From assembly GCF_051622035.1 (NCBI RefSeq), contig NC_135355.1:34019986-34083985 (forward strand): a stretch of 64,000 nt of DNA, read 5' to 3'. This DNA comes from Arctopsyche grandis (Eukaryota > Arthropoda > Insecta > Trichoptera > Hydropsychidae). The notes under the pieces were generated by a model, which did not search any database, had not been told where the DNA came from, and saw only the letters and a list, made by a program, of their open reading frames with translations. A program made the translations under genes and the position numbers. The number at the start of each line of letters is the position of its first letter. The stretch's first letter is position 1. Positions 29,472 through 43,539 of the stretch are shown here, piece after piece.

Positions 29472-32400
29472 TTATTCTATTTTTATAACAAGCCTCTTAT
29501 TAGCTTTCTTTCTTTGTGGCTTCACCCTAGTATGAATGTTCATGTGTGCTCTAAGATTATGTTTCGTAATACATGATTTTGAACAAATGTCACATTTGTA
29601 TGGCTTTACTCCACTATGAATACTCATATGTGCACCGAGTAGATATTTTGTGAAGAATGTTTTTGAACAAATGTCACATTTGTGTGGTTTTACCCCACTA
29701 TGAGTATTGATATGTGTTCTAAGATTTCGTTTCGTAGCATACGTTTTTGAACAAATGTCACATTTGTACGGCTTAAATCCAGTATGAATACCCACGTGTG
29801 CACCGAGATCATACTTTCTAGGGAATGATTTCGAACAAATGTCACATTTGTATGGCTTTACCTCGCTGTGAATACACATATGTGAACTGAGGTTTGATTT
29901 TGTGAAGAATGATTTTGAACAAATGTCACATTTGTGTGGCTTTACTCCAGTATGAGTACCCATATGTGCACTGAGTCGATACTTACCAAAGAATGATTTC
30001 GAACAAATGTCACATTTGTGTGGCTTTATCCCAGTATGAATACCCATATGTGAACTAAGTTTTGATTTTCTAAAGAATGATTTTAAACAAATGTCACATT
30101 TATGTGGCTTTTCCTTTCTATGAGTACCCATGTGTGAACAAAGGTTTGATTTTGTGGAGAATGATTTTGAACAAATGTCACATTTGTGTGGTTTTAGCCC
30201 ACTGTGAATATTGATATGTGCTCTAAGATTTCGTTTCGTAGTATATGTTTTTGAACAAATGTCACATTTGTGTGGCTTTAATCCAGTGTGAATATACATA
30301 TGTGCACTGAGTTCATATATTCTAGGGAATGATTTTAAACAAATGTCACATTTGTGTGGTTTTACCCCAGTATGAATATTGATATGCGCATTGAGAGATC
30401 GTTTCGTAGCATATGTTTTTGAACAAATGTCACATTTGTGCGGCTTTTCCCCACTATGAACCCTCGTGCCAACGCTTAGACTGTCTTTCCTGTTAAATGA
30501 TGTTGAACCAATGTCACAATCATGCAGATTGTTTTCATGAGTAAATGATTTGTCTTGGAAATCTGTTATGTGGTCCAATTCAGAATGTGTAGAGCACATC
30601 TTATCTAAAGCTTTTTGTAATGACAATTCTTTCGCTAGATTGTGTCTATTGGTATCTATTATTGCTGCCATATTATCTCTTGAAGCAATTTTTCTTCCAG
30701 GGGTCTAAAAAATAAACCAAACGTTATTCAATTTAACATGTGTAACATTTTTATAGGTGATTATTAGATTTTCGATTGACCCTACAGTGCATGATTTTTT
30801 TATTTTTAAAAATAAAAAATATAGCCTAGTGTGAAATCGTAATTAGATTATGGGAAAAATAATAAAAAAAATCATGTTTTAATTTTTCTTTGTTTTTTTA
30901 TTTAAAAAAGTGGATGATTCATATATGCATCATCATGCATTCATTATATTTCATGAATTTTTTTAAAACAGTTTTTATCTTTATTGAAACACAGTGCTGT
31001 GCTACATTTTTCGCACTCCACATATGTTTGTGCTTTGCAGGATGGCAGTTTGCACCGCACACGTCTATCTCCCCAAATCGGACAATGATTTATGTTATCT
31101 AGCCGTACATCAGGCGAAGGTAAAACCGCCACAATGGGTTTTTTCTGTTTGCAAGCGATCTCCATTTGCAAACCAGTCGGTCTTCCTCGTTTTTCCAACG
31201 AAGGTAACCCAATGGTGCACAATGTACGAGCCAGATCTAATCTAAAATCGATTAATTTCATTACATCCTTGCCTTCATTGCATCTTCGCATAAGCAACCA
31301 AGCATTTATAACAGAAATATCTAAAAGGTGATAAAACAGCCGCATATACCACTTTCGTGATCGCATTTTAATTTTATATCTGCCAATCATGCTATCTAGT
31401 AAATCAGCCCCACGATGGCGAGCCTTTGTGGAACATATCTGCTCATCAATAGAAAGCATTTCCTCCATGGGGGTTGAAATAAATTTGGAAGAAAGTGAGT
31501 CTATGATGGGCCTTAATTTATGTAATTTATCATTATTTGCATCTACTTAATTATCGTTGAAATGCAAATTCTTTCTAATTGCTTCAAATGCATTTACGCT
31601 TAATGTATTTCGCACAATTTCTAGACCGACGATTTCGTTCCAGTATAACCTTGTGTTCGAAATCGAAACTACTGATGAAATAATGCAAATTCCCAAATAT
31701 TTCAAAAGATTTGTTTTTGAAAATTCAAACGGTATTGCCGCATTATTCTGATCACTATATTTTATAGTTTCTTCGACAATTTTGTATATTAATTTATCAT
31801 CAAAAAAATATTTAAAATATTGATACGGCGTTTCTAATTTTTTTATTGAATCTGACAGCACCGAGTTTCCGGTAAATGCCGGAAAATCTTTTTTCCACAA
31901 ACATTTTCTGACTTTGGAAAACACCGGATTGGGTTTATTTTGTGATGTAGTAGGTTGTGTTAATTCTTCAATTAATGGAGGTACAAGAATTGGCAATTCA
32001 GAAGTATTGTGGCTATCTAAGTAATTTTCTAACGATGTCTCCGAAACAATATAATTGTCTCCTTCATCATTCGAGTCATCTAATTCGTCATCACTGCCGA
32101 CAGGTGTATTTTCGATTAAGTCAAATAAGGCATCACTATCTAATTTTTCCAAATCTATTCTTTCAAGCCCATTTTTGTATATGAAAGGCATCTAAAATTT
32201 AAAAAACATATAAAAAAATTGTACTCTAACTGAAGTACTAAATATACTATACTGAAGCATATTCAATTGCATGGTGATTCATTTATGAATCAACCAGTAT
32301 TTGAGGTACATATAAGAGAAATAAATACAAATCAACTCAAGATCTAACATCACAACATAATTCTCTAGGATATATACAATACAATAAAAAAATTGTATTG

Positions 32401-35400
32401 TATATATATGTAAAAATTTGGACATAACTTAAAGACGTAAAGGAATTTATTTCTTTGCAAAGTAGCACAAATTCACTACCCGTGTTGACCAGTCGAAAGA
32501 TCGTCACAAAATGGTCAAAAAAGGATCATTTTTATGATTTAACATCTGGAGAATGGATGGTTCACAATTAAGGGTGTCAGATTTCATGCAAGTCAAAAAT
32601 TAACCTTCCAGCGGGCGCGCAAAGTTATTTCCTTTGAGCGAGCGCTTGTCGTAAATTTTACGTCATCAAGTTTTCTCCATGTAAATGGTGTTTTATTAGT
32701 GTAAATGGTGATTTCTTTATGTAAATGTTAAGGAAATGTAAGGTTATGAAAAATGATAAATGACAATACTTTAAAAAATATATATTTTACTTTCTCAACA
32801 AAAAACCAAAACAACACCCTAAATATGCTAACATTTCAAAACAAAATATTTTATCGACCTATTCGATCATTATTCAGAATTATTAATCAGAATCAATATT
32901 ACCTATTAGTCAGAATTAATATTTTCATCCTTACAATTATTACAAACCACCTCAACTGCAGAATGCTTCTTGCATGTAAAGGACTGGCAATGGCAACACT
33001 TCATTGATGCTGACGTTCTTTTCTTCTCCAGTGCACATGACCGACAAACACCGCGTTTTGGAAGGCTTCTATTTTCTTCTTCTGTTATCGGTTCAACTTC
33101 CCGACCGTAATTTACTTTGAGAAAAGCACTTACATCTTGCGGTAAATGTTTGATATTTGATCTGAAGATAAGATGCTCTTTCATCATGCTCAATGCTAAA
33201 TTTTTTAGAAAAATTCTTCGATGCCTTGGAGTCTTTTCTGGACAGGCAAATTTGTATAAAATTTGAGCATTTATGCCAGCAATATTCATTAGTGCGTAGA
33301 AAACTACACACGGCCATCTCTTTGTTCTTCTAGAGACCGAGTAAGCGGCACACATTTTATCGACTGTATCCACTCCGCCTTTGGTGTCACTGTAGTCCAG
33401 TATAACCTGAGGCTTTCCGGTGTCAGGATCCATTTCGTCGTCGTCATGTAATGTTGAGAGTAATATTGCAGATTTATTTTTCTGAGGTCCATAGGAAAGC
33501 ATCATTTTTTCTTTTTGGAAACCAAAAAGAGTGGATCCAACAGCTCTGCTTTTGCCCGGCAAGAATTCTTTTGGGATTTCTACTTTGTTCTTTTTTATTG
33601 TGCCCAAAACTGTTATTTTTTTCGTAAGCAAATAATCAGCGAGTGGTACACTTGTGTACCAATTATCGGTGGTCAAATTCCGGTTCGAGTTTTCTATCGG
33701 AGTGACTAGACGCTTTACAATATCTGTTGGAGTATTAGAGGCCGCAAATGGTCCAGCGGGTTGAATTCCGCAGTATATTTCCAAATTGGATGTGTAAAAA
33801 CTTTTGGCATCACATAACGCAAACATCTTCAACCCGTACTTTGCTGGTTTGCTAGGAATATATTGTATAAAACTACAACGACCTCTAAATGGATGCAGCA
33901 TCTCATCGATTGTAGTATATGCGCTCAATTTGAATGATGACTTGCAGTTATTAACGAAAGCTTGAAAAAACTCACGTATCGCTGCCAGTTTGTCAACTTT
34001 CCTCCTTTCAACTCGGGTATTCTTGTCATCGAATCTCAGGCAACGGGTGATGAAGAGAAATCTCTTGTGACTCATGACAGCTCTTGCTATTTCAATCCCG
34101 GTACCGTCACTGGCAAAAATCTCTTTCAGATTTGCATGGTGACATTTTTTTATTCCTATCAAATATAGTAGACCAAAGTATGCCATAAATTCTGGTCTGT
34201 CGATGTTTTTACAGTTCCGATCTCTAGAATATTGATGGTTAACTCTTAGCTGATCGATATACATATTTGTGTATTTTAAAACGTCGTCAATCATAGACAT
34301 ATCGATAATTTGTAATAATGCATGTAGTTCATTTTCAATACCACGAGATTTTTGAGTCAAGCCAGTGGGTACTTTGACTACGCTTATCTCTTTGTTTTTT
34401 CTAGAAACTCGGTATGTTGTCTTTCGCCATTTTGTAGATTTATTTTTTCCAATGAAAAATTCTTCCATTGTTTCCTGCTCTCCTTCAGATTCGTCTGAAG
34501 TGTTTTCTTGATCAGTATCGCTATCTTCAAGTTGTAGTTCGATTTCTTCTTCCGAAAACTCGCTGTCACTCGAAGGAAAGTACGCCTCATCATCTTGTAG
34601 TCTCATCATCTCCATAATGGAAGACGTCTAAAACAAAACTACGTACATAGATAAAGTAAAAATACATTTAGCTACAAAATAAACGATATAAATGAGAAAT
34701 AAATAGAAAAAAGTGGTTTATTTAATATACTTACGTTAGAAGGCGCGCGTGTCGTAAAATTTACGCTCAACGGAAATTCCCAAATATCGATGACTCACAA
34801 AAACTTCTAAGCACAACCGATTCGCCTGCAGTTTCGGGAAACACTGATCTTCGAATAGCTCGAAGCTTATCACCAAGTGGTAAAAGTAGGGGATGCGATA
34901 AAGCGCATTTGTCGTAAATTTTACGACAGCGCGCCCGCTGGAAGGTTAACATTAGCATTGCCACCCCCCAAATCCAACGCATTTTTTAATTTAAAAGTTT
35001 GTATACAAAAATTGACGACCATATCTGAAGTTTACCCCCCCCCCTTAAACTCCCCAATTTTAACAATTTTACATTTATTCCTGTTTTAGAAAAATATTGA
35101 ATTATTTTTTATTAATCAAGCGGAAATATTTTTTGATTTCTGTGGTTACTAGAATCGGTGATAATACTATAATATGAGCAACTTTGAAGTTCATTACGAA
35201 TGAGATCAACTGAATAAGGTGCGAAAACTTGATTAACCTTTCCCTCACGGTGCTAAAAACATCCGCGCGCTCCGATGATATGTATTTTGTACACCATATG
35301 AAAAAGTGACTTAAAAACCGGAAAAATTGAAATATTCATAAATATTTTATATATAGTCGCAAGTACCAGCACTATACATATACGTACATTATCTTTTAAT

Positions 35401-38400
35401 AATATTTCTCGTGGAATAAAAAGACAGAATGCGTGTGAATACCACAAATATGTATTTTTTTTAAAAACATACATATAAAATTGAAAATAAAAAAGCCAAT
35501 GTATAAAGACAAAATGTAAAAATAATGCAACTGACATTAGACAATAAGATACAAAATATACAAATAAAATACAATATATACATACAAAACGAAATATAAG
35601 TATAAAGACAGAATGCATGTGAATACCACAAATATGTATTTTTTTTTTTAAAACATATATATAAAATATCAAATTGAAAATAAAAAAGCCAATGTATATA
35701 TGTACATTTAGATATAAAGACAAAATGTAAAAAATAATACAACTGACATTAGACAATAAGATACACAATATACAAATAAAATACAAAATATACATATAAA
35801 ACGAAATATAAATATAAAGACAGAATGCGTGTGAATACCACAAATATTTTGATTTTTAAATGCTTTTTATTATTACGAAATTATGTTCACAATACATCTT
35901 ATATCTATTTTAATAGCTACTGATCTACTGATCATTTTTTACAATTTAATTTAATTTGGTTATTAATCACAGTATTATATTATTCTAATGTTAATCTAAA
36001 GCATAATAGGAAAAAGAGCTCAAAAACCTATTTACAATCCTTATAAATGTTCATAATACATCTAATACATAATATTAATTAACCCTTTGGCTGCTACGAG
36101 GTTTTTCAATGTCCAAGCGAAAAATGCTAACATTTGTAATTATTTTGAAAAAAAATAAATATAATATTTTTTTTACATACTTACTTCGCCGAACACTCGT
36201 AATTTTTATAATACTTTATATACATTTTTAAGAAGCAGTCGTGGACTCGTGCTCTCTCTTTCTGTCTTGCTTTTACATGCGTGCGTGCGAAAGAGATACC
36301 TACATATATACACTAAATAAGTTTTGACAATTGTTTTCCGACGCTTTATTCTTTTCAATAATCTATTTTTAGATATCGATGTATCCTTACAACATGCGAT
36401 ATATTCGAAACAGGTAGCGGTCTTTCTCTCTTTCTTTCTTGGTTTTAATTGTGTACGTGTGAGCGAGACACACAAGGATGCGAAGTTTCTAATAATCAAA
36501 TAATTTTTCAACATGTATCATAAACATTTTGTATGCATTTCAGTTGCATTTGATTGATTGCATGAATTCGTGACGTCTCGTGACCTATATAATTGAAAGC
36601 GGATTTCTATTGTTTTTTGCCATTTATTTTAACTCTGCAAAATGATATCGGACAGTGAAAGTGATGAAAGCGAAATAATAGCTCCTCGCCGAGGAACTCG
36701 ACAAATCAGCAGCTCTACTGATTCTGAAAATGGATTTATCGACAATAATCAATTCCCAAGTAATAACTCCTTATATGACATTGACAATGAACCCGAAATT
36801 TACTTTGATGATGAACCCGAAATTGAAGAGCTTTTATTTAAAAAATTGATAAATATTTATAAAGCCTGATTGAAAAATAAATATAAATACGTATATAAAA
36901 AAAATGTTTCGTGCCACTGATGCGCTGGTGGCTCAAAGAAAGTATTGAAATACGACAATTAATGACGTCAACAACGATCGTCGTAGCAATCTTCGCCGAT
37001 TTCAAAACAACGATTTATCGTTGTTGTAGCAGTCAAAGGGTTAAAGACTCTCTAAAGTCGATGACCTAAAGCAGATTATGTTTAGGTAATCTGTGTTTAT
37101 ACCTGAAGGGTATAGACATTTTGTATACCACAAATATGAATTATGTATGTACATATAAAATATAAAATTTGAAAATAAAAAAGTGAAGTAAGAAGGGGTA
37201 AATGAAATGTCTAGTTTGCACAATCGGAACACGATATCATTTTTTTCCGGTGTGTCAAACATACAGGTTTCTTGCAAATATTGCAAACTAGCGTACTCTT
37301 TTTTTTTGTTGCATAAGGGCAAAACCTGCATGTTCTCACTGACGCTCGGGATGCTGTAGATGTTGATGCCTCTTGTGAATTGCTCATACTATCTATTGCA
37401 GCTGTCTCGGGTGATGTTTTTGCAAAATATGCTATTGCCATGTCAATTGCGTCCTGTTGCGGTTTATGAAACTTGATCTGACTATTTTTTCTGCGAATTA
37501 TATTAGGTTTGGCCAAATCTAAACTGAGCTCTCTGATGAAGCATTTTCTGCGACTTCTATTATTTTTCTTCCACTCAGGATACTTTAGAATCCACAATAA
37601 GTATGCATTTAGTGCTGCCATGTCAAGGATTTCCATAAAGATGCGAAAAGGCCATCTTCTCGTCGACCTCACGCACGAATATTCTGCCGTCATACTGTCC
37701 CCAGTGTCTACCGCATCATGTAGTTCACGTTGTCTAGATGGCAAAAACTCTTTGGGTATTTCCCTCTTATTTTTTCGAAGAGTACCGGTCAGTGTTAATT
37801 TATTTTCTAATAGATTAACCGATAATGGAACCGATGTAAAACAATTATCGGTTGTTACCCCTCTGTTTGTGCCGTATTGTGGTCGAACCATGTCCATAAC
37901 CACTCGATTTCCCTGGTTGACTTCTCTTCTATTATTGACCATTCCCGAGTAAATTTGTAAATTTGATATATATGCCGTGGAAGAGTCAGCTGCTACCCAA
38001 ATTTTAATTCCATATCTCCCAGGTTTTGACTTCATATAAACCCGAAATGGACAATTGCCCCTAAATGTGGCCAAACGTTCGTCTGCGGTTATGTTACATG
38101 TTGGTGAATAATTTTGCTGGCATGCACATACAAATTTGTCAAAAATTGACTTTATGGGCTCTAGCTTATCTGAAGAAGCATTATATCGCTGTTCCCTCGT
38201 GTCTCTGTTGTCGAACCGAATATGGCTATATATATTGATGAATCTATCTCGAGACATAGCTGCCGTGAAAAATGGCTGCGAAAAAAGACCGTCAGTAGAC
38301 CACAATTCATTCAAACTAAGTTTTCGTGAACGATTTCTGCCAGACGCAAGCATTATTCCGAGGAAAGCGCATAACTCTTCTTCAAAAAGCGGGCCCATTT

Positions 38401-40089
38401 TATTTTCAGGTGAACGATCCATTTGACGGGTTGTTTCCTCACATATATCTTTTATCATGTCTTTAGTTATAAATAAGGAAAAAAAATCTCTAATTGTATT
38501 TACATTGGCACTATCATTTTTAAGTCCAGAATTCTCAGTTACGATATTGCTCATCCGACGTCTTGAGGACGATGGTGGTAATGGATTGCATTCATGTCCA
38601 TACCTCGATGTGAATATTTCTCCTACATCTTCATTCCCGCTGGCTTCTCCGTCTTCATTCTTAGTAGCTTCTTCTTCTTCATTCTCACTGGTTTCTCCAT
38701 CATCATTCTCACTAACATTGTCGAAATCTTCAACAAAATCTTCCGTGTCTGTAATATCATCGTTGATTTCGAACTCGATATCACTATCATATTCATCTTC
38801 ATTCATAGATCTGTTTTCATCCATTTCATTTTTCTTCTAAAATAACATATAATATACGAGTATAATGAATAAAATTGAATAAAGTGCAGTAACATAAATA
38901 AAAATCTAAATAGTGCAAACAAAAAAAAGTAACACACCCAAAAGTATCACGAGAAATAACAATAATCACGAAACTCTTGAGAACCACTGTAGACTGCAGA
39001 CTGCAAGAGTGACCCTCGGTGAAGCAAGGAACACGAGTGAAAAAAAACGCACACAAACAAGCTTACCCGCGCGAAATCCCCGATTTTTCGACAAATTATT
39101 TATTTCCGTCGCTGCAGATGAATAATTATATATATTATAATACATTGATGTAATTCATAATTATATTACGGAGGAATACAAAAATTCTGAACCTCGTATC
39201 TATTAAATTTCATATCGATATTCCCATTATTAGAGTCGAGTTGTAGTAAATACATATCACAGGGGAGGAAAGGTTAACCAAAGAAGTTGTTTTTGTTTTG
39301 AGTGATGTCGTTTGCTTCTACAGTTCATCGTTGAATATTGCTGCAGTGTGTTGTCCAGACATTGACTTTTTGTTTATAGTTTATGTTACATATTCTTTAA
39401 TTATGAGTTAAAAACTTCTGTAGGAATTTAAAAAGTAGTAAACAGGGACATTTGGGCGTCCCGAGAGGTTTGTTCGGGACACGAGAATTAAAACTGGTGA
39501 CAATCCCGATTAATCGGGACGCCCGACAACCCTATTCACAATGGAATTACCATGAATTCAGATAAAAAAATCTCCGTCACACAAAGTTACATGCAAAAAT
39601 ACACAGCGGTTCATATATGAATCACTATGCACTGTAGGGTTAACTGAATGTTTCGCTTAGAATCGATTAAAGGCAACCGAATCCTATTTACTAACCTCGC
39701 CATTGTTTCACCCAACTCATCTTCCCATATTGAATCTTCCAGAAAAACTTCCTCCGGCTTGATTTTCAAACAATTGCCTAATGCCTGCCTCGACGCTGTG
39801 TCATTCTGAAAACAAGCGTTCCGAAAGCTGTCGAGCAATTCCAGATTGTTGGCACAAGAAAGGCATATCATATCTGGCAGAGGGTCATCTTTCCTAACCT
39901 GCAAATGAGAAAGGTATTGACTATTGAAGATTACGAGGACTAGCCAATTAACAATAGCAATGGTTCGGGTGTAACCTCCAGCTGACAACAGGTCCAAATA
40001 CGTTGCGCCAATCCCGGTGGATGACGGTCGTCATGGATGGAGACGAAGGACTCTGCTGGAGCAGAGCAAAGACAAAGTCTGCACTCCAT
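29472..40089 (-). CDS. ZAD-C2H2 zinc-finger protein, 3 exons, about 517 aa
   Basis: Exons are 40089-39976, 39898-39692 and 30704-29472, all in phase 0 when the exon 2 donor is TTA|GTAAAT. Exons 1 and 2 encode a ZAD domain (MECRLCLCSAPAESFVSI, then LAQRIWTCCQLEVRKDD, LPDMICLSCANNLELLDSF), with the C-x2-C pairs that bind one zinc ion. Exon 3 starts TPGRKIASRDNMAAIID and encodes 11 complete C2H2 fingers, with linkers TGVKPHKCD or SGVKPYKCD, and a decayed finger before them (HDCDIGSTSF lacks its second Cys). ZAD proteins are insect nuclear DNA-binding proteins that dimerise through the ZAD; the target here is unknown. The 9-kb intron 2 is filled by nested piggyBac elements. The link of ZAD to finger exon rests on strand, phase and domain logic, not on transcript data. 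Confidence 0.85.
30944..32191 (-). pseudogene. piggyBac transposase of family D, internally deleted
   Basis: Starts MPFIYKNGLERIDLEKL, with an acidic N-terminal region, then the DDE_Tnp_1_7 region (LKYLGICIISSVVSISNTRL, RLYWNEIVGLEIV). An in-frame stop follows HFNDN at 31547-31549, and the frame resumes with MLSIDEQICSTKARH. Compared with related transposases, roughly 200 residues between KARH and RGADLLDSMIGRYKI are absent, removing the middle of the catalytic domain. The C-terminal cysteine-rich domain is present (CKAQTYVECEKCSTALC). Not functional. Confidence 0.82.
32604..34945 (-). mobile_element. Apparently complete piggyBac element (family A), 2342 bp
   Basis: TTAA (32600-32603) and TTAA (34946-34949) flank perfect 17-bp inverted repeats CCTTCCAGCGGGCGCGC. 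A second, subterminal block TGTCGTAAATTTTACG is present near both ends. The transposase frame 32906-34615 is uninterrupted. Size, termini, target and frame all fit an intact element. It is nested in the older piggyBac of family D inside the zinc-finger gene intron. Confidence 0.93.
32906..34615 (-). CDS. piggyBac transposase, full length (569 aa)
   Basis: A DDE-type transposase that cuts and inserts DNA at TTAA without leaving a footprint. Layout: acidic N terminus (about 1-60, EDSDTDQENTSDESEGEQE), DDE_Tnp_1_7 core (about 110-480) and a C-terminal cysteine-rich zinc-binding domain (CRSCALEKKRTSASMKCCHC through HSAVEVVCNNC). The expected catalytic aspartates are visible: TIDEMLHPFRGRC, LTTDNWYTS and GGVDTVDKM, with the last supplying two. 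The RRTKRWPCVVFYALMNIAGI motif follows. Length is close to that of the moth piggyBac protein (594 aa). The first ATG at 34615 is followed closely by a second (MEMM), and either could be used. No host role is suggested. Confidence 0.92.
   Translation of the reverse strand: MEMMRLQDDEAYFPSSDSEFSEEEIELQLEDSDTDQENTSDESEGEQETMEEFFIGKNKSTKWRKTTYRVSRKNKEISVVKVPTGLTQKSRGIENELHALLQIIDMSMIDDVLKYTNMYIDQLRVNHQYSRDRNCKNIDRPEFMAYFGLLYLIGIKKCHHANLKEIFASDGTGIEIARAVMSHKRFLFITRCLRFDDKNTRVERRKVDKLAAIREFFQAFVNNCKSSFKLSAYTTIDEMLHPFRGRCSFIQYIPSKPAKYGLKMFALCDAKSFYTSNLEIYCGIQPAGPFAASNTPTDIVKRLVTPIENSNRNLTTDNWYTSVPLADYLLTKKITVLGTIKKNKVEIPKEFLPGKSRAVGSTLFGFQKEKMMLSYGPQKNKSAILLSTLHDDDEMDPDTGKPQVILDYSDTKGGVDTVDKMCAAYSVSRRTKRWPCVVFYALMNIAGINAQILYKFACPEKTPRHRRIFLKNLALSMMKEHLIFRSNIKHLPQDVSAFLKVNYGREVEPITEEENRSLPKRGVCRSCALEKKRTSASMKCCHCQSFTCKKHSAVEVVCNNCKDENINSD
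35424..35850. repeat. Tandem repeat in piggyBac 3' region (about 190-205-bp unit)
   Basis: Two adjacent copies of a unit beginning GACAGAATGCGTGTGAATAC, followed by CACAAATATGTATTTTTTT, a GAAAATAAAAAAGCCAATGT block and ACTGACATTAGACAATAAG. The start of a third copy is at about 35819. A related piece is at about 37110-37190 on the other side of repeat R. This explains the long hydrophobic open frame at 35253-35843, which is not a gene. Confidence 0.85.
36083..37040 (+). mobile_element. piggyBac internal-deletion derivative (958 bp)
   Basis: TTAA|CCCTTTGGCTGCTACGAGG at the left and GTAGCAGTCAAAGGG|TTAA at the right. Ends are related to the MITE at 21827-22385. On the + strand 36642-36869 encodes 75-76 residues, MISDSESDESEIIAPRRG through DIDNEPEIYFDDEPEIEELL. 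This is an acidic stretch like piggyBac transposase N termini, so the element probably arose from an autonomous copy by loss of the catalytic part. Confidence 0.85.
36642..36869 (+). pseudogene. Truncated piggyBac transposase N terminus
   Basis: Acidic, serine-rich 75-residue frame starting MISDSESDESE. Only the N-terminal part is left; no DDE residues are present. It starts about 560 bp inside the MITE's left end. Its identification rests on composition and on the piggyBac termini around it. Confidence 0.6.
37211..38824 (-). CDS. piggyBac transposase (family B), 537 aa, in-frame internal deletion
   Basis: Open from MDENRSMNEDEYDSDIEF to a C-terminal cysteine-rich domain (CRFCPYATKKKSTLVCNICK and CLTHRKKMISCSDC). 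DDE motifs are visible: ITADERLATFRGNCP, GVTTDNCFTSVPLS and AVDTGDSMTAEYS. Compared with the sister copy at 41359-43099, about 50 residues are missing between LPSRQRELHD and AVDTGD, the segment that there reads SLFGFTSTKTLVSY and beyond. The frame stays open but the fold is probably damaged, so activity is doubtful. The N-terminal acidic repeats (ENEEEEATKNEDGEASGNED) look like expanded GAA/GAT codons. Confidence 0.82.
   Translation of the reverse strand: MDENRSMNEDEYDSDIEFEINDDITDTEDFVEDFDNVSENDDGETSENEEEEATKNEDGEASGNEDVGEIFTSRYGHECNPLPPSSSRRRMSNIVTENSGLKNDSANVNTIRDFFSLFITKDMIKDICEETTRQMDRSPENKMGPLFEEELCAFLGIMLASGRNRSRKLSLNELWSTDGLFSQPFFTAAMSRDRFINIYSHIRFDNRDTREQRYNASSDKLEPIKSIFDKFVCACQQNYSPTCNITADERLATFRGNCPFRVYMKSKPGRYGIKIWVAADSSTAYISNLQIYSGMVNNRREVNQGNRVVMDMVRPQYGTNRGVTTDNCFTSVPLSVNLLENKLTLTGTLRKNKREIPKEFLPSRQRELHDAVDTGDSMTAEYSCVRSTRRWPFRIFMEILDMAALNAYLLWILKYPEWKKNNRSRRKCFIRELSLDLAKPNIIRRKNSQIKFHKPQQDAIDMAIAYFAKTSPETAAIDSMSNSQEASTSTASRASVRTCRFCPYATKKKSTLVCNICKKPVCLTHRKKMISCSDCAN
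39446..39533. repeat. Small inverted-repeat fragment
   Basis: CAGGGACATTTGGGCGTCCCG at the left and CGGGACGCCCGACAACCCT at the right are imperfect inverted repeats around 45 bp. The ends resemble hAT termini, but no 8-bp duplication is evident. Confidence 0.4.
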
Positions 40090-40686: not shown

Positions 40687-43539
40687 CCTTTCCCTTACGG
40701 TGCTAAAAAATTACGCGTGCAGCGGTGATGTCGACTCAGTCGTTCTAGAAATTCGTGATTTTAAAGTCGGATAAATATGAATATTTAACCATTTTTCCTT
40801 CTATTCATGACTATAGTAATAGTCCGTATCTATATAAATGAATATATATGTATCAATATTGGTAATATACTGCTAAAAACGATCTAAAAAGCATGAAATT
40901 GAAGACGCGTGAACGACAATCACAGAAGGCCGCCCATCTCCAAGTGAGGACGAACACTAGGCCCCCACTCCGCGACTCGCTGATCAGTGATCACGCCACA
41001 TCCGCCAGAATTACGCGATGATTCAAAACCTATGCGTAAAAATATATTCAATTTTTTCATCAAATAAAATAAAATATATTTATATGTACTTTTTATGTAT
41101 TTATTTTCACAATAATAATTTTAATACACAAATACATAAATTGATAAAAAAAAATGAGAAGTAAACGTAAATAAAAAAAATATAAGACAATAATAATAAT
41201 AATTAATTGATAAATATAAGTATTCATCCTTGCTATAATACAAGTAGACAATTACAAAAATTACAAAATTCACATGAATGATAAAAATATAAATTTTATG
41301 TAAATGTAAGTAAAGAACAATAGCATCAAAAATGTACGAAAACCGAATAACAATAAAATTAAATATTTGTGTCCATTACATAACAATCAGAGCATGAAAT
41401 AATTTTTTGTTCAATTATGTGCGTTATACAAACAGGCTTTTGACAAATATAGCACAATAGCCGAGTTCTTTTTTTTATCATTGGATAAGGGCAGAATCTA
41501 CAGTTTCTCGTTTGCACTCTAGAAATGGTAGATGTATTCTCCAATATGCCTTCTTGCGGAATGTTAGTGGAATGTGCTTCTAGTGATTGTCGATCATACT
41601 GCGATATAACCATATCAATAGCATCCTGTTGTTGTTTATGGAATTTTACTGTACTTTTTTTTCTCCTTACAATATTGGGCATAGCTAATTCCAAACTAAG
41701 TTCTCTAATAAATAATTTTCGTCGACTTCTGTTATTCGCCTTCCATTCTGGATATTTCTGCGCCCATAGCAAATATGCATTTAGCGCAGCTATATCCAGC
41801 ATCTCCATAAACACTCTAAAAGGCCATCTTCTTGTTGATCTTGCACAAGAATACTCACTTGTCATTTTATCGCCGGTATCTACTGCGCCTTTTGTTTTAT
41901 TATAAAACATTATTATTTCCGGCTTCTTTTCTTCATGACTACTCACTTCACTGTCATGAAATTGAGTAGACAATAGCAAAACTGCTTTATTTTTTTTTTG
42001 GCACATACGAAACTAATGTCTTGGTTGATGTAAAACCAAACAAGCTACTGTGTAAAAGTCTATGTTTCGATGGTAAAAATTCTTTGGGAATTTCCCGTTT
42101 ATTTTTACGTAGGGTGCCAGTTAGAGTTAGCCCTTTATCTAAAAGGCTATCAGCTAATGCCACCGAAGTAAAAAAGTTGTCCGTTGTTACACCTCTATTG
42201 GTGCCATATTGCGGTTGAACTAAATCCATCACTACACGATTCCCTTGATTTATCTCTCGGCAATTATTAACCATACCTGTATAAACCTGTATATTTAATA
42301 TATATGCTGTTGAAGAGTCAGCCGATACCCACATTTTTATTCCATATCTACCGGGTTTCGACTTCATATATACGCGGAATGGGCAATTGCCTCTATAGGT
42401 AGCCAAACGTTCATCCACAGTAATGTTGCAACTTGGAGAATAATTACGTTTACATTCTTCTACAAATTCATTAAAAATTGTCCTGATAGGTTCTAATTTA
42501 TCAGACGACACGTGTATTCTTTCTTGTCTGGTTTCTTTGTCGTCAAAACGAATTTGACTGAATATTGTGATGAACCTATCCCAAGACATAGATGCCGTAA
42601 AAAATGGTTGGCAAAAAGCGCTGTCATTAGTCCACAATTCATTTAAGCTTAATTTTCGGGTCCTATTTCTGCCAGACGCAAGCATTATTCCAATGAATGC
42701 AAGCAATTCTTCTGCCAATATCGGCTCGATAATTTTCGTGGATGTACGATGTAACTGACGCTTCGTTTGTTCACATATTTCTCTCACCATATTTGAATTT
42801 ATAAACAAAGAGAACATTTCTCTAATAGTATTTACAGTAGTGCTACCATTTATAAGTCCTGAATTTTCGGTAACAATATTGCACTCTCTACGTCTTGAGG
42901 ATGATGGTGGTAATGAATTCCATTGAAATCCATGATTCGATGTATACACTTCTTCGTCTTCATTTTCACTGGCCTCTAATTCCGAATCTGTATCTTCCAT
43001 ATCTTCAATAAAATCTTCCGTATCAGTAAAATTATCATTTATTTCAAAATCGAGATCGCTATCATATTCCTCTTCATTCATCAAATTTCTTTCAGCCATT
43101 TTTTTCTAAAATTAAAATTGTCTTTGAAAATATAAATATAATATACAATGTAGCATAGCAAATTAAAAAAAAATAACATTAAATAATTATTACCGTATTT
43201 ACTATATAATCATCAAGAAACACAAATAAAGTGCTGGTCCACACGGTACAAAAAAGCTCCGAAACGAAAAAACAACACGCGCGCACCGAGAATGGGACAC
43301 GACTGAAGGAAAAAACGTAATAACACACACTGCATTTGTGCATTATGCCCGATTCTTCGATAAAATATTTTTTTCTGTTGCGTTAGATAAATACGTGTAT
43401 ATTATAATAATTCTATCTAATACATTAATGTATTGCCGAGGAATACCCAAAATATGAACTCTGTATTTAGTATATTTACAGAGATATTCACACAATTAGA
43501 GTAAATGTCGACTATGTTTCTATCACCGGTAAGGAAAGG
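40687..43539 (-). mobile_element. piggyBac element (family B), nearly complete, 2853 bp
   Basis: TTAA|CCTTTCCCTTACGGTGCT at the left and CACCGGTAAGGAAAGG|TTAA (43540-43543) at the right. It carries a full-length transposase interrupted by one frameshift. It lies between the ZAD gene and the RNF34-like gene, outside both. Confidence 0.92.
41359..43099 (-). pseudogene. piggyBac transposase (family B), one frameshift
   Basis: The first frame (43099-41987, 370 aa) starts MAERNLMNEEEYDSD and covers the N terminus and much of the DDE core (ITVDERLATYRGNCP, GVTTDNFFTSVAL). The second frame (42006-41359, 215 aa) continues from KKKNKAVLLLSTQFHD through GAVDTGDKMTSEYS to the cysteine-rich end (CRFCPYPMIKKRTRLLCYIC). 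They meet in a run of ten T (A on the coding strand) near 41990-42000, where a one-base slip accounts for the break. Apart from this no damage is apparent. Confidence 0.88.

Follow-up and report, generated by a model that had tools for sequence, protein, structure and literature searches.

The window analysed here, a 64,000-nucleotide stretch of Arctopsyche grandis DNA, carries a reverse-strand zinc-finger gene of the ZAD type, whose second intron holds a nest of transposable elements (Table 1). Exon 2 matched the Pfam zf-AD model at 26 bits (E 1.1e-5), against a curated cut-off of 28 bits that is set for the whole domain, only half of which lies in this exon. The intron runs from GT to AG with phase 0 at each end, and the limits drawn for it by an earlier sequence-only reading, between ZAD exon 2 and the finger exon, were right. 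The proposal that an original intron of about 120 bp had grown to 9 kb through successive nested insertions was likewise borne out by the net length.

Table 1. Features of the nested intron, its host gene and the related C3 locus. Positions are those of the window unless prefixed; net lengths exclude nested insertions.
Feature	Position	Strand	Description
Finger exon	29472-30704	-	Open, C2H2 array; acceptor TTTTTTAG immediately before ACC
Intron 2 of the ZAD gene	30705-39691	-	8987 bp; 123 bp minus insertions
Outer piggyBac	30780-39639	-	1886 bp net; non-autonomous
Predicted acceptor, outer piggyBac	32192-32197	-	TTTTAG directly before ATG (0 nt); phase 0
hAT element	32569-39534	.	579 bp net; duplication TTCACAAT at 32561-32568 / 39535-39542
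piggyBac pb2	32604-34945	-	2342 bp, in hAT; matching termini, TTAA
Predicted acceptor, pb2	34616-34629	-	TTTTAG + 12 nt to ATG; phase 0
piggyBac pb3	35237-39273	-	About 2747 bp net of R and its duplication, in hAT; matching termini, TTAA
Repeat R	35848-37124	-	5'-truncated, retroposon-like 3' end; about 315 bp net of MITE
piggyBac-type MITE	36083-37040	+	958 bp; start of transposase frame; TTAA, matching termini
Predicted acceptor, pb3	38825-38838	-	TTTTAG + 12 nt to ATG; phase 0
ZAD exon 2	39692-39898	-	69 aa; phase-0 donor GTAAAT at 39691
ZAD exon 1 (predicted)	39976-40089	-	38 aa, MECRLC...CCQLE; ends in phase 0
C3 locus	C3:27319300-27328780		L084, L080, L085

The flanks of the outer element, joined as an intron lacking it, were compared with ZAD loci of the same genome (best 40 of 455 candidates; 42 rows, of which the window accounts for two), and 32 of the 40 non-window rows crossed the junction at 76-83% identity over 401-445 bases. 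The predicted insertion point reads TCAA, not TTAA, in L075, the only paralog with a base-by-base alignment, and also in the C12 locus L072, both being paralogs and not orthologs. Longer introns occur in some ZAD paralogs, of approximately 0.5-0.7 kb in L076, L077 and L079 and approximately 2.2 kb in L072. The family is very large, with 989 first-look candidates for PF07776 and clusters on C9, C12, C11, C6, C5 and C13.

The outer piggyBac has 13 identical terminal bases and is flanked by TTGA and TTAA, the former being the decayed left duplication, in agreement with the ends proposed earlier. Its size had been put at about 2.5 kb, against the 1886 bp measured, because the outer piggyBac and a hAT element inside it had been counted together. 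Its transposase survives in two pieces (30944-31468 and 31547-32191), both recognised as DDE_Tnp_1_7, with an inner stop and the middle of the catalytic domain missing. Inverted termini of the CC(C/T)T type and TTAA duplications, the marks of the piggyBac superfamily, were found in the outer element, pb2, pb3 and the MITE. Another piggyBac (40687-43539), with a broken frame and many near-identical relatives, lies just upstream of the ZAD gene, and the ZAD paralog locus L079 represents an empty site for it.

The sequence-only reading had both inner piggyBacs inserting directly, at TTAA sites, into an outer piggyBac of 2.5 kb. The piggyBac coordinates and the TTAA sites agree with such a history, but the segments surrounding both elements belong to a repeat with 433 first-look candidates in the genome, which we classify as a hAT element lodged in the outer piggyBac and holding pb2 and pb3, a 579-bp deletion derivative by its sequence. 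The 8-bp target duplication typical of the hAT superfamily, TTCACAAT, stands on either side of it. Outer-family copies crossed the hAT position without a break in 18 of 29 fetched loci, corresponding to 15 distinct places (L027, L028 and L031 overlap L006, L021 and L010), while the remaining 11 had no contiguous pair; in 12 of the 15 places the bases in common were exactly the eight of the duplication. The hAT element's own copies had both ends within reach in 18 of 29 fetched cases, eight of which carried a perfect duplication (8/8 bases, scored allowing a shift of 2). Among these 29 copies, the pb2 site was spanned empty in four and the pb3 site in five, the rest stopping short of the respective site. 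Direct nesting is thus refuted by empty hAT and outer-family copies, and we give it almost no chance of being correct.

Both inner piggyBacs have matching termini and flanking TTAA, and their limits had been correctly placed. The transposase of pb2 is intact (569 aa, 32906-34615, DDE_Tnp_1_7) and, when aligned to the Trichoplusia ni piggyBac structure (PDB 6x67), shows the TIDE, TDNW and GGVDTVD motifs and the C-terminal cysteines. With the four catalytic aspartates, which we take to be D268, D346, D447 and D450 in 6x67, and a cysteine-rich domain, pb2 is a candidate autonomous element. It shares TTAA, catalytic motifs and the C-terminal cysteine-rich domain with the moth transposon, from which it differs in its termini and diverged sequence (phmmer E 3.3e-85). 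The family consists of derivatives of about 570 bp made of its two ends in 38 of the best 40 places and of full-length copies in the other two, of which only that in the window has a full-length open frame. The other full copy, on C13 and about 95% identical, is dead (W63*, D416G, D419V, the last two removing catalytic aspartates). The dN/dS ratio of approximately 0.41 between them (21 synonymous and 33 non-synonymous changes) would not by itself demonstrate host selection. One scan of viral contigs for possible carriers of pb2 found no relative.

The pb3 frame (537 aa, 37211-38824, DDE_Tnp_1_7) has lost about 54 aa in frame within the catalytic domain. Only one close copy, 94-96% identical, was found among the best 40 of 127 candidates, at the C12 locus L072 (C12:3889022-3891247), where it lies in sense in intron 2 of a ZAD paralog, inside a different repeat; its left end is missing and only the right TTAA end is visible. 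The translation of that repeat resembles a hAT transposase by eye. Gene duplication was judged an unlikely cause of the two ZAD-intron locations, since pb3 identity (94-96%) exceeds that of the ZAD exon region (86%) and intron (79%) and the flanks differ. Because the acceptor region of the L072 copy is lost and stops are present, this copy is not maintained as a ZAD fusion.

Within the tandem repeats of pb3 lies repeat R, which is flanked by a 13-bp duplication, ATACCACAAATAT (35835-35847 and 37125-37137), and not by the TTAA previously assumed. Its A-rich 3' end (AATAATAAAAAGCATTTAAAAATC), the variable-length duplication and a 5' truncation, beyond which other R copies extend, mark it as a putative retroposon-like insertion. 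An empty site for R was not found, the sole close pb3 copy (L072) lacking that part. The splitting of R, inside pb3, by a piggyBac MITE had been recognised correctly, including the coordinates of the MITE, which has matching termini and flanking TTAA. The MITE is absent from all five fetched R copies, and DDE_Tnp_1_7 was not called in it, unlike in pb2, pb3 and both outer pieces. All of the best 40 of 636 candidates were full length and 99-100% identical over 958 bp, which points to a very recent burst of this family.

The nest, as we reconstruct it, is five deep: outer piggyBac, hAT, piggyBac, R and MITE. A deleted piggyBac entered the 123-bp intron, followed by the short hAT, by two piggyBacs within the hAT, by the retroposon-like R within one of these and by the MITE within R. 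The nesting described as a three- to four-deep piggyBac nest stood, but not its depth, its element count or the order of events; the claim that every step used TTAA held for the four piggyBac-type insertions and failed for hAT and R, with their 8-bp and 13-bp duplications. These errors, like that in outer size, arose from missing the hAT layer and the retroposon. For every insertion but R, five of the six in all, the same 476-Mb genome contains relatives with the empty site. Identity to relatives climbs with depth, from about 80-90% outside (mostly 70-90% over long pieces for the outer family, 81-89% for hAT) through 95% for pb3 and pb2, each to a single copy, and 97-98% for R to almost 100% innermost, in agreement with the nesting order, and the MITE is the youngest layer. 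The nest thereby provides a clean relative chronology, checked via empty sites in one genome. Such nests are ordinary; this one is real and richer than first described, and none of the papers listed by a literature search on nested piggyBacs concerned such a nest, going by titles or the beginnings of abstracts.

The most consequential feature, absent from the sequence-only reading, is that all three transposase-bearing piggyBacs (outer, pb2 and pb3) lie in sense with the host gene, each with a predicted phase-0 acceptor at or just before its ATG (Table 1). Candidate poly(A) signals (AATAAA) follow the transposase stops after 41 nt in the outer element, 208 nt in pb2 and 372 nt in pb3, which completes the predicted layout of an exon trap: sense orientation in a host intron, in-frame acceptor before the ATG and poly(A) signal. 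pb2 also has its own donor, GTAAGT, at 34734. With the upstream element, whose acceptor lies 6 nt before its ATG in phase 0, each of the window's four piggyBac families has such an acceptor. The strand in question contains 46 TTTTAG in 64,000 bases, so that a chance match within 13 bases has a probability of about 1% each; as the four families are homologous, however, their acceptors are not independent and mainly reflect an inherited feature. The AG was kept in 13 of 16 informative outer-family places, ten of them as TTTTAG, and TTTTAGACG is retained in the C13 copy of pb2.

A candidate mature case lies at the C3 locus (Table 1). ZAD exon 2 is followed there, on a single strand, by a pair of short exons, then by the piggyBac frame and lastly by a finger exon that encodes 11 C2H2 motifs, every exon read being a multiple of three in phase 0; ZAD exon 1 was not found in the 3258 bases upstream of exon 2. 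The piggyBac frame (602 aa, open, single copy) has an in-frame acceptor, CCCACAG, an AATAAA 33 nt past its stop, and closest relatives at 28-29% identity among the best 73 of 205 candidates. Against 6x67, one catalytic aspartate is kept and three of the four are lost, on the residue numbering assumed above. Element termini were not found, the best of 154 TTAA pairs matching at an unconvincing 9 of 14 positions. That an old frame has stayed intact despite the loss of catalytic residues suggests use by the host, and the element looks domesticated; its joining to ZAD is predicted from exon phase.

Across the genome, the best 116 of 605 piggyBac-domain candidates were scored against 188 listed ZAD exons (the best 150 of 989 candidates and 38 from the joined-flank comparison). 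Ten scored piggyBac genes had a ZAD exon no more than 10 kb away, against an expectation of 0.92 under an even spread, which is a crude null as clusters of ZAD genes may be rich in transposons. All seven scored piggyBac genes located up to 5.5 kb downstream of a ZAD exon on the list, a cut-off picked after the list was seen, were in sense (two in the window and one each on C12, C6, C13, C5 and C3). Within 12 kb downstream there were nine sense pairs and one opposite, while upstream the numbers were three and two. On the downstream side of ZAD exon 2 the C6 locus carries an intact transposase of 577 aa, the fetched part ending before the finger exon, and the C12 locus has a broken piggyBac in ZAD intron 2. 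At C13 (L081, C13:3357500-3363500) the piggyBac sits in or after the finger array, and at C5 a broken one follows the finger exon, neither being in intron 2. The L081 frame is open for 579 aa with no ATG near its start, as if needing an upstream exon. No piggyBac transposase was seen in intron 2 of the ZAD loci L076, L077, L078 and L079, which rejects transposon inserts in ZAD introns as a general rule.

We consider it probable, at roughly 0.6, that the nest acts as several 3' exon traps, stacked in a ZAD gene and all in its sense orientation, an explanation that covers both its history and the trapping. The phase-0 donor of ZAD exon 2 would splice past the fingers into the acceptor before each transposase ATG, and the trapped transcripts would end at the AATAAA signals beyond the transposase stops. 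The predicted products are ZAD-pb3 with a mutilated transposase, ZAD-pb2 with a full-length one and a short ZAD-outer fragment, while removal of the whole 9 kb would give the normal ZAD-finger protein. That transcripts splice into the transposons is deduced from the DNA, and the short, AT-rich acceptor sequences count against it. Nested transposons in introns are common, and the intron might simply be spliced out whole, its transposon acceptors silent or repressed and no host-joined product made. The decay of family copies elsewhere in the genome and the broken C12 sibling of pb3 would fit such an inert nest, but the three sense orientations out of three with in-phase acceptors, the uniform sense orientation of the seven scored cases near ZAD exons and the old intact case on C3 do not, and we regard it as rather unlikely. 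It is far less probable still that the host gene is dying, with the insertions trapping its transcripts and the finger exon no longer joined to ZAD: the host's own acceptor is indeed the farthest of four in competition, yet both the ZAD exons and the finger exon retain open frames and, by sequence, usable splice sites.

The exon-trap layout itself is already known. The layout of piggyBac, that of moths included, is a natural 3' exon trap according to Newman et al. (2008; PMC2268245), and the primate CSB-PGBD3 fusion, as presented there, has the same sense piggyBac in a host intron, the same poly(A) signal after the stop and the same acceptor a few nucleotides before the ATG, in frame with the host donor. 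The window differs in having three stacked elements in one intron of an insect ZAD zinc-finger gene, known from DNA alone; the C3 locus, where a single old element has lost catalytic residues, is closer to CSB-PGBD3 than the window is. Vertebrate fusions of transposases with KRAB and other host domains have reportedly been described by Cosby and colleagues in 2021. The arrangement predicted here shares with the KRAB type a regulatory host domain upstream of a captured transposase, putatively joined by splicing, and differs in that ZAD replaces KRAB and the evidence is genomic. Drosophila ZAD-ZNF genes are likewise clustered, fast-evolving ZAD and C2H2 genes, and some ZAD proteins contain other domains; no transposase domain is named in the available portion of that source (PMC7655104).

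No ZAD-piggyBac fusion was found in the open-access literature searched. The novelty lies in ZAD as the host family and in the stacking, and the part worth following is that a ZAD gene has sense-oriented, in-phase traps and that a mature candidate exists elsewhere in this genome. The wider proposition, that piggyBac exon traps repeatedly land in ZAD genes and yield ZAD-transposase proteins, with C3 as the mature, domesticated case and the window as the young, stacked one, is put forward tentatively. If true, it would give insects an equivalent of the fusions of CSB and KRAB with transposases, linking piggyBac as a natural exon trap with the expanding ZAD-finger family, a link not found in the literature searched. 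Were the fusions made, insects would possess their own stream of regulator-transposase proteins, running from a young insertion, as in the window, to an old intact gene, as on C3.
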